Of a stretch of DNA of 64,000 bases, positions 17,611 to 19,430 are shown one piece after another (the first letter of the stretch is position 1; each line of letters starts with the position of its first letter). Source of the DNA: an uncultured Eubacterium sp. (GTDB lineage Bacteria; Bacillota; Clostridia; Lachnospirales; Lachnospiraceae); contig CAKRGX010000005.1 of assembly GCA_934338065.1 (NCBI GenBank), positions 1 through 64,000 on the forward strand, written 5' to 3'. The notes below the pieces were generated by a model. It saw nothing but the letters and a program-made list of their open reading frames with translations. It made no database searches and was not told the origin of the DNA. Made by a program: the position numbers and the translations under genes.

Positions 17611-19249
17611 ATGACAAAAGAACAGTTTGTAACCCAGTTGATTCATCATCTGGAAGGAATATTCCCACAAGAGGAGTATAGGATAAGAAGTGATATTTTT
17701 GTCAAAAATAACAGTACAAAACGTTATGGACTTATCATCCAGAAAAGAACGGAACAGGTACATCCTACCATTTACGTAGATGATTTTTTTGAAGATTATT
17801 TACATAAAAAAATTACTTTATCAGAAATTTCAGAGCGAATACAGCAGATTATGAAAGGGGTATCTGAACAAGTAGAACGTTATAGCAAATTTTCAATTGA
17901 ATGGCCGGACTGTCAGTCGAAAGTGACGTATCGGCTTATATCAATGGAGCGGAATAAAGAACTTCTTTCCTGTATACCGCATATTCCTTTTTTAAATCTG
18001 GCCATTGTTTTTTCTCTTGTCTACCATGTGTCGGAACAGGGACTTGAATCCATCTGTATCACTCAGGAATTACAGGATAAATGGAAAGTTTCAACGAAAG
18101 AATTATTTCAACAATCTGAAAAAAATACGATTCGTCTTTTTGAACCACATATTGAAACAATGGAAAATGTTCTTTATAATTATCTCGGTTATAAACCATG
18201 TATAGAAGAGCAGATTCCTTCTATCTATATTTTTTCAAATAAGATGGGGATCAATGGAGCAACTGTATTGATCTACAAAGATCTGATTCATAATTTTGCA
18301 AAGAAAATGCAATCCAATCTTTATATTATCCCTAGCAGTATTCACGAATGTGTGACCCGTTTTGCCGCATAAATAAACAAAGGGCAAGTATTGTGTAACC
18401 ACAGTAACAACTTATTTTTCGAGAGGCAGAATGAATGAGTAACGCCATGAAATGTCTCCTTTAATACTCCGAATAGCGTTTTACATTTGCACAGGTGAAA
18501 GGTTATAAGCTCGGTGAAGGCGGCTGAGAGCCATCCTAACATATAGTGGTGAGGAAATGCGAACTAGAGGTAGTCGAGTGGATGATAGGCCGGAAGTCTA
18601 TAAAATACCTATGGTGAGGATGTTGTCTATACAAAGTCAACTGGCGAACTTTTGAAGGAAAGAGTCTATAGAATAATTATATAGAAATGTATATTGGGGA
18701 TGCAACCAGGTAAGTGTGGGTGAGTAATTAATTCGTGATGACAGCCCATACAGTGTTACAGGCACTGACAAGCTTACAGGCTCAAAGAAAGCACCTAAGG
18801 GTATATGAACAGATAGAAAAATAGGAACGGGGAAAGCTGACAACGTTTAGGATGTGCAAATCCGGCAAGGCGTTCTATGGTAACATAGTTGATGTCAGTG
18901 AGAGCAGGGGCAGCATATCAATGAAACAGTGATAATAAGCTGTGGAGAGACAGCCCCAAGTCAGAGTGTTCATTAAACAGATGGATCAATAGGAATATTC
19001 TGATGGAACGCCGTATGAGATGAAAGTCTCACGTACGGTGTGGAGCGGGGGAAAAGATGGAAAGCAGAATATGATCTGTTCAGATCTTACCTATCGCTAT
19101 TACTTGTTATTCCAGATGCCGGAGCTGGTCCGCTGTCATATCTGTCCGACATGGTAAAAGAAATCAATCAGGCACATGTACAAGCAGAAGAAGTTTTGTC
19201 TGATTGCGCATATTATTATGATTTAGAAGAAAAACGTTTCGTTTTATGA
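17611..19249 (+). CDS. DUF5688 family protein, interrupted by a group II intron (join 17611-18349, 19101-19249)
   Basis: Exon 1 runs from ATG 17611 (after AAGGGAG) to 18349 and exon 2 from 19101 to the TGA at 19249. Joined, they give 888 bases, an unbroken 295-residue frame; the junction codon is T plus TA (Leu), giving SSIHE-LLVIPDAG. Both halves look like one DUF5688 protein, a family common in Lachnospiraceae with no known function. It is soluble, with no signal or membrane helix. Without splicing, translation ends eight codons into the intron, at the TAA of 18370-18372. This argues against a pseudogene, since exon 2 keeps its frame and a sensible sequence (MVKEINQAHVQAEEVLSD). Confidence 0.85.
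18350..19100 (+). mobile_element. Group II intron without a reverse transcriptase gene (751 nt)
   Basis: It starts with GTGTG (18350), matching the GUGYG rule, and ends in AT (19099-19100), matching the AY rule. ATTCGTG at 18731-18737 is an exact 7-bp complement (EBS1) of the last seven exon bases CACGAAT (IBS1, 18343-18349). A weaker EBS2-IBS2 pair may be AATAC (18604-18608) with GTATT (18338-18342). TATGG (18610-18614) and CCTAAG (18794-18799) form the two strands of the 11-nt GAAA-loop receptor. Domain V and VI follow at 19008-19100. No ORF for a maturase exists in domain IV, so splicing would need a maturase from elsewhere or be RNA-only. Confidence 0.92.
19008..19100 (+). ncRNA. Group II intron domains V and VI
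   Basis: Domain V is 19008-19041, exactly 34 nt: an 8-bp lower stem, a two-base CG bulge, a 5-bp upper stem, a T-G closing pair and a GAAA loop. The catalytic triad reads CGC. Domain VI runs from about 19044 to the end: AGCG pairs with CGCT, then G-T, an unpaired A at 19093, then further pairs. That A is eight bases from the 3' splice site, the usual place for the branch-point adenosine. Confidence 0.9.
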
Positions 19250-19316: not shown

Positions 19317-19328
19317 AAATGAGTAAAT

Positions 19329-19401
19329 GCATCTGTGGCTCAGTGGATAGAGTAGAGGCTTCCGAAGCCTTTGGTCGGGGGTTCGAATCCCTCCAGGTGC
19401 A
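19329..19401 (+). tRNA. tRNA-Arg (anticodon CCG)
   Basis: The 73-nt cloverleaf has acceptor GCATCTG paired with CAGGTGC (one T-G pair) and discriminator A. The anticodon stem is GAGGC/GCCTT with loop TTCCGAA, so the anticodon is CCG, reading CGG. The T loop is GTTCGAATC. The CCA end is not encoded and must be added by nucleotidyltransferase. It probably shares a transcript with hslO, which starts 29 bases downstream with no terminator between them. Confidence 0.95.
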
Positions 19402-19430
19402 TTCTTTTATTGTAAGAAAGGATGATTTGC

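Follow-up and report, generated by a model that had tools for sequence, protein, structure and literature searches.

The window, that is, the whole 64-kb stretch of DNA analysed here, carries a DUF5688 gene interrupted by a group II intron of 751 nt that has no reverse transcriptase (RT) ORF. The features of the locus are as follows (a slash in amino acid motifs marks the intron position):

17611..18349, + strand: exon 1 of the DUF5688 gene (Pfam PF18941, E 5.5e-63; 246 codons and one base; ends ...SIHE/)
18338..18343, + strand: IBS2, GTATTC (5/6 pairs with EBS2)
18344..18349, + strand: IBS1, ACGAAT (6/6 pairs with EBS1)
18350..19100, + strand: group II intron without an RT ORF (Rfam models)
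18406..18604, + strand: domain I core (RF02004 match)
18610..18614, + strand: presumed 11-nt GAAA receptor, TATGG strand (located by eye in the sequence)
18671..18676, + strand: EBS2, GAATAA (class alignment; pairs with exon positions -12..-7)
18731..18736, + strand: EBS1, ATTCGT (class alignment; pairs with exon positions -6..-1; base 18737 pairs too)
18794..18799, + strand: presumed 11-nt GAAA receptor, CCTAAG strand (located by eye in the sequence)
19008..19041, + strand: domain V with GAAA loop and CGC triad (RF00029)
19093, + strand: presumed branch-point A of domain VI (unpaired in the RF00029 alignment; eighth base from the 3′ end)
19101..19249, + strand: exon 2 of the DUF5688 gene (in-frame join; final 49 residues and stop)
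19328..19402, + strand: tRNA-Arg(CCG) gene adjoining the DUF5688 gene

The domain I model RF02004 (group-II-D1D4-5) matches with 158.6 bits (E 1.6e-35; cut-off 34.5), and RF00029 (Intron_gpII) matches domains V and VI at 19006-19100 with 62.7 bits (E 6e-10; cut-off 40). The comparison with Rfam group II models proposed in the initial annotation thus gave two scores above the gathering values, with domain V inside the RF00029 match; the 64-kb window contains no further group II match at or above cut-off. The intron starts with GTGTG and ends with ...GCTAT, in agreement with the GUGYG and AY boundary motifs, and domain VI has a bulged A. The 5′ GTGTG, the 3′ AT, both receptor strands, domain V and the domain VI adenosine were all found where they had been placed before. 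We read TATGG and CCTAAG as the paired strands of an 11-nt GAAA receptor. A GTG-started frame (19040-19249) runs from the end of domain V across the 3′ splice site into exon 2. Alternative splicing of the kind found in intron C.te.I1 of Clostridium tetani was considered and set aside, since the window holds a single DV/DVI above cut-off.

The absence of an RT, also claimed earlier, was borne out: the longest stop-free sense frame within the intron has 45 codons, and the RT of a sister intron finds nothing in the window better than E 0.29, compared with E 9e-157 at control locus L158. The window intron therefore lacks the intron-encoded RT/maturase that defines the retroelement form.

Joining the exons without the intron restores the reading frame and gives a 295-aa DUF5688 protein with the motif PSSIHE/LLVIPD rebuilt. 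The PF18941 score is 267.9 bits for the spliced protein (profile positions 2-289 of 290) versus 213.6 bits for exon 1 alone. The junction directly follows PSSIHE, which is invariant across a 30-row DUF5688 alignment. The motif is uninterrupted in 45 of 46 aligned homologues, the exception, P0001, being the interrupted form; the closest homologue with an unbroken gene is P0002 (74% identical). The Rfam matches, together with the frame and family motif regained on excision, uphold the original reading of an RT-less group II intron inside a DUF5688 gene. The label 'self-contained' goes further than this, since a helper RT may lie at another place in the source genome. P0001 represents five sequences from four contigs, so the interruption is unlikely to be an artefact of one assembly.

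Read unspliced, the gene meets a stop 7 codons inside the intron and would yield a truncated protein of 253 aa. The locus could accordingly be a pseudogene, truncated at residue 253 by a dead, non-splicing intron remnant; the missing RT fits this, and with the function of DUF5688 unassigned, loss of the gene would perhaps be tolerated. However, the catalytic and guide elements checked are all intact, exon 2 has kept an open frame and its likeness to the family, and the same interrupted ORF recurs in the sequences behind P0001. Double changes are, moreover, kept in paired positions of RT-less introns of the class described below: at least one at 32 of 47 predicted domain I pairs (raw count; 8 of 10 aligned RT-less introns, with L153 and L092 excluded from the folding set) and at 7 of 14 domain V pairs (raw count; 10 RT-less introns). 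These changes indicate that the RNA structure of the RT-less members may be under selection. We regard a dead remnant as very unlikely.

The intron class, its boundaries and its guides

We scanned 200 genomes of the family to which the Lachnospiraceae MAG G001 belongs; 21 of them gave a total of 31 domain I matches that exceed the cut-off. Among the D5 matches listed, 23 of 26 paired introns are long, spanning 2.6-3.1 kb between domain I match and 3′ end, and three are short, spanning 675-690 nt (G127, G019 and G024); 5 of the 31 domain I matches were unpaired. Long and short were called by span and pairing was carried out by hand; length alone is no proof of an RT, as shown by L148 from another sample, which is long and has a broken RT. 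Short copies are a minority in the class, yet recurrent.

A set of 21 introns, chosen by similarity to the window intron and hence not a census, was analysed further. Ten are short and without an RT match. Their hosts are DUF5688 (three cases), a UvrD-like helicase, a HAMP-domain protein, a MoCF-domain protein, an RMMBL-like protein (assigned 0.1 bit below cut-off), Maff2, DUF815 and a DnaE-type polymerase. A further intron of the set, L001 (2922-4078; Cetobacterium somerae plasmid p1), lies in an annotated galU and carries an annotated HNH endonuclease ORF, with no RT match. The initial annotation had called the window intron unusual. This holds insofar as ORF-less introns are described as rare in bacteria in the available text of a 2015 review (PMC4424553); within the class, however, RT-less copies inside genes recur, as in 10 of the 21 introns, three of them at the same codon.

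Several individual loci are also of note. The MoCF-domain (molybdopterin-type) gene of G575 hosts its RT-less intron on the minus strand (L151, 4274-4956), with a Moco riboswitch match upstream. In G292, an RT-less intron of 801 nt lies in the DnaE-type DNA polymerase III alpha gene (L092, 1208-2008; YQ/EQVMQI). L155 (G035:C16) contains two RT-bearing class introns, after DPKG/ and DFWT/, apparently in one VirD4-type gene. In L156 (G506:C38), a D1D4-2 match with its own D5 is apparently nested in a D1D4-5 intron, a twintron-like arrangement.

For the analysis of boundaries, 20 domain I and D5/D6 matches were paired, 19 of which have a GTG(C/T)G 5′ end. Splicing in silico at the exact boundaries produced an open join (at least 30 codons on each side) in 17 of 18 introns, while boundaries shifted by -2, -1, +1 and +2 did so in 4, 3, 5 and 3 of 18, and the unspliced sequence in 1 of 18. 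L153 is the sole failure, with a stop 11 codons past the junction. L155b is counted among the 17 open joins, yet its upstream flank is flawed, as it holds the end of the first intron. L002 is outside the 18 joins but was kept for the tree, the comparison of RTs and the counts of guide pairing; L154, whose 5′ end was not found, is absent from the later intron counts, and L149 and L156 are outside the analysed intron set.

The guides of the window intron match the exon closely. A 7-bp EBS1 had been proposed at 18731-18737, and ATTCGTG is indeed the exact complement of CACGAAT; the class alignment instead favours a six-base EBS1 accompanied by an EBS2 that had not been listed. EBS1 and EBS2 together form 11 of 12 pairs with the final 12 exon bases. 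In the window, 23 of 127,976 12-mers on both strands, the true site included, reach at least 11 pairs with this guide; 231 reach 10 and 6,017 reach 8. The pairing is therefore above chance. Among the best 80 of 552 DUF5688 loci found, the empty sites pair with the window guide at 8/12 or more in all 80 cases and at 10/12 or more in 23; these sites are not independent, because the protein motif is common to all of them.

The guides follow their targets across the class as well. Over 21 related introns (the 19 with a GTG(C/T)G 5′ end plus L114 and L146), mean pairing is 10.33/12 with the own exon and 5.75 with other exons, G-U pairs counted. The own exon ranks first for 19 of the 21 introns and third for L115 and L146, both of which belong to the same-site clade. 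None of 100,000 permutations for EBS1 and none of 5,000 for EBS2 (offset search included) equalled the observed pairing; these tests ignore kinship and count related introns as independent, L114 and L146 being near-copies. The EBS1 changes of L116 compensate synonymous exon changes (GAA to GAG, CAC to CAT).

Same-site relatives and the reverse transcriptase

A search with the window intron in 397 and 392 genomes (partly overlapping sets) returned four genomes at E < 1e-100, namely G211, G019, G036 and G728. G211 is Acetitomaculum ruminis DSM 5522, judged from protein P0162. The intron was found in none of the 8 genomes searched that carry the nearest DUF5688 genes, and a pattern search for its 5′ end in viral contigs found none. 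When plasmids were searched by Megablast with the 5′ half of the L114 intron plus the beginning of its RT, two Paenibacillus records gave matches of 67 bases, and the G728-type DUF5688 protein matched two Butyrivibrio records among plasmids.

In G211, where the intron measures 774 nt, and in G019, the same codon of DUF5688 as in the window holds an RT-less intron, and tRNA-Arg(CCG) adjoins the gene, on the other strand in G019. In G728, a DUF5688 paralogue (PSSVHE/) is interrupted at this codon too. The G728 locus is split at contig ends: one contig bears the 5′ half, and the other bears the RT, the 3′ half and exon 2. The RT is an open 605-aa ORF with an NCBIfam TIGR04416 match, followed by D5/D6 and then by DUF5688 exon 2. 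The two halves were assigned to one intron because DUF5688 exons flank both sides. A RepA_N protein gene begins about 0.6 kb past the intron, and on the other contig the DUF5688 gene is about 1.5 kb from a gene that we take to be hppA-like. That the intron-bearing gene of G728 rides a mobile element is therefore no more than a guess. In G036, the 5′ half of the intron is inside a GH38 mannosidase gene, after the codons for SSIHE. It has 684 bases in common with the G728 intron, with one mismatch, and the host genes are unrelated. The RT frame of G036 is terminated by an inserted stretch with three genes, presumably recombinase-like.

The introns of the window, G211, G019, G036 and G728 form one clade with support of 100/100, and the DUF5688 codon is an address common to clade members in several species. 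The RT-less introns are not a clade of their own in the tree (moderate supports of 90/84 and 93/91). The count of five changes between RT-bearing and RT-less states is indicative only, as L148 was scored as RT-bearing though its RT is in pieces; a fragment inside this intron is, we assume, transposase-like. With an RT-bearing sister at the same codon and a near-copy in a mannosidase gene, the window intron appears to descend from a mobile intron with site-specific insertion and to have lost the RT.

The intron of the window is 77% identical to that of G211 by BLAST over the full length (80.4% by pairwise identities) and 73.3% identical to that of G019; the G211-G019 value is 72.3%. Identities with the 5′ part available from G728 are 82.9% (window), 86.1% (G211) and 75.1% (G019). 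The DUF5688 exons are 46.8% (window-G211), 45.5% (window-G019) and 51.2% (G211-G019) identical, and 40.0%, 40.1% and 40.5% identical to G728 for the window, G211 and G019, respectively. This difference could be due in part to the ribozyme being more tightly constrained than the DUF5688 protein.

The intron site was read as empty in 80 of 80 DUF5688 loci (the best 80 of 552 found). The 552 loci came from an alignment-based contig scan; exon 1 as the sole query gave no relative. Three homologue searches listed 281 clusters (the third contributing 120 of 355): four have an intron-type tail (P0001, P0091, P0155 and P0162), 239 continue past the motif and 38 do not have the motif as written. P0098, a DUF5688 homologue of 254 aa, has a tail that corresponds to the intron 5′ end read in a different frame and comes before the PSSVHE position, which may reflect either a deletion or a second insertion site.

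These data bear on whether the intron was inherited vertically from an ancestral DUF5688 locus and lost many times, rather than inserted repeatedly by horizontal transfer. Common descent would account for the shared codon and for the tRNA-Arg(CCG) gene lying beside the DUF5688 gene in the window, G211 and G019; this tRNA gene lies there in all five relatives scanned (L115, L116, L004, L014 and L005; opposite strand in L005 and L116). Common descent fits poorly with the empty sites, with an intron identity far exceeding exon identity and with the presence of the clade in a DUF5688 paralogue and a GH38 gene. Vertical inheritance is thus improbable, and repeated horizontal insertion is the reading followed below.

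A helper RT was sought in seven RT-less carrier genomes, all drafts, a full-length cognate-type RT being defined by at least 45% identity over at least 570 residues. Such an RT is present in two of them (G575 and G024) and was not found in the drafts G019, G211, G552, G292 and G127. Partial matches were obtained in G211 (161 aa, 50%), G552 (133 aa, 42%) and G127 (204 aa, 39%), and none in G019 and G292. The sole RVT_1 match of G292 is a 343-aa frame, 26% identical to the cognate-type RT over 105 residues. Both positive controls, the RT-bearing genomes G290 and G046, were detected. Draft G019 has one RF00029 match and no RVT_1 or GIIM match. We rely on the RVT_1 and RT searches here, because the GIIM profile failed to pick up the cognate RT of G024 and had no match in either L158 or L182.

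A related RT-bearing intron at another place in the genome may provide the window intron with a maturase in trans, on which it would depend and with which it could still move. RT-bearing sisters do exist (G728 and G036), two of the seven RT-less carriers have a full-length RT of the same type, and an intron-encoded protein (IEP) acting in trans is reported for a cyanobacterium in the available part of PMC4424553. Against this stand the five carriers with no full-length cognate-type match, with the reservation that these are drafts and that other RT types might help, and especially G019, where neither RVT_1 nor GIIM has a match and a single group II intron is present. Dependence on a maturase in trans is a real possibility to which we give slightly less than an even chance. 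Since draft G019 is free of any RT match, maturase-free splicing is also possible, and introns of the clade may splice in this way.

Interpretation and comparison with known systems

It is very probable, in our view, that the window intron is a structurally complete and probably splicing-competent group II intron whose RT gene has been lost, and that its clade has spread horizontally into the same DUF5688 codon. The 12-base guide of the clade would read the DNA encoding S-I-H-E in the invariant DUF5688 motif. RT-dependent retrohoming from RT-bearing sisters would have carried the intron into one and the same codon of DUF5688 genes that have diverged, and in one case into the GH38 mannosidase gene, and the RT would have been lost after insertion, apparently more than once. 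In the pre-mRNA, the intron would fold, EBS1 and EBS2 would grip the exon end coding for SIHE and two-step ribozyme splicing would lead to the full 295-aa protein. Splicing itself, retrohoming as the route and the order of RT loss are what we infer from sequence comparison.

A broader reading is offered tentatively, as somewhat doubtful: bacterial group II introns may be able to last, and to appear repeatedly, at a fixed site of a cellular gene as introns that only splice and need no maturase, with the RT-bearing form as the disperser, possibly on a RepA_N element. The disperser would seed chromosomal DUF5688 genes, and its descendants would shed the RT and still splice, in one draft genome or more where no RT match was found. 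If true, this would be an organelle-like, domesticated state, for which the available text of PMC4424553 gives a single bacterial example. Organellar and spliceosomal introns are proposed to have arisen through such a passage, from mobile retroelement to RT-less, splicing-only intron. In the present case, a single codon of one gene family hosts both intron forms in related bacteria, and the guides track their targets, so RT loss, helper dependence and persistence become testable, among others in A. ruminis DSM 5522, a deposited strain. The locus also points to an annotation gap, as the interrupted A. ruminis gene is deposited as a 261-aa hypothetical protein (P0162). Among the entries that our literature search listed, there was no report of an intron in DUF5688, a name that the papers covered do not mention, and none of one common site with both RT-bearing and RT-less forms.

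Ll.LtrB and RmInt1 are retrohoming introns that address their targets by EBS/IBS pairing, spread site-specifically and encode their own RT. The window intron resembles them in EBS/IBS addressing and site-specific spread and differs in having no RT. It shares with the RF02004 introns of Firmicutes the domain I model, the GUGYG start, DV/DVI and the guides. The RT-bearing members of this group encode an RT of 600-635 aa, unlike the window intron, and most of the group, among the D5 matches listed, are the long forms described above, in contrast to 751 nt here.

Judged from the RF02004 match and the description in PMC3919590, the window intron probably belongs to bacterial class B. According to the available text of the same paper, C.te.I1 is most similar to class B and its genome has no RT-related sequence; like the window intron, it is ORF-less and has a boundary motif of the GUGYG form, in its case GUGCG. 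Its predicted 5′ boundary is 2 nt past the stop of an S-layer gene, with the real splice site on the other side of that stop, whereas the window intron sits in frame within coding sequence. C.te.I1 is described there as having no EBS2 and as using four DV/DVI copies in alternative splicing; in the window intron, EBS1, EBS2 and one DV/DVI are present. Start codons of ORFs downstream of C.te.I1 lie in DV/DVI, comparable to the GTG-started frame of the window (PMC3919590).

In the part of the 2015 review available (PMC4424553), C.te.I1 is the only ORF-less bacterial intron whose genome has no related gene for an IEP. A 2022 survey lists 888 of 13,041 group II introns as lacking an IEP (PMC8919778, as far as its available text goes), and among phage group II introns 6 of 20 are ORF-less and 14 of 20 lie in coding regions with intronless homologues (PMC12350094, 2025, available text). 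From the accessible portions of these three sources, ORF-less introns are therefore a kind already known. The present case differs from the phage introns, as far as PMC12350094 describes them, in that the host is a cellular gene, the same codon is occupied in several species and an RT-bearing sister is found at that codon.
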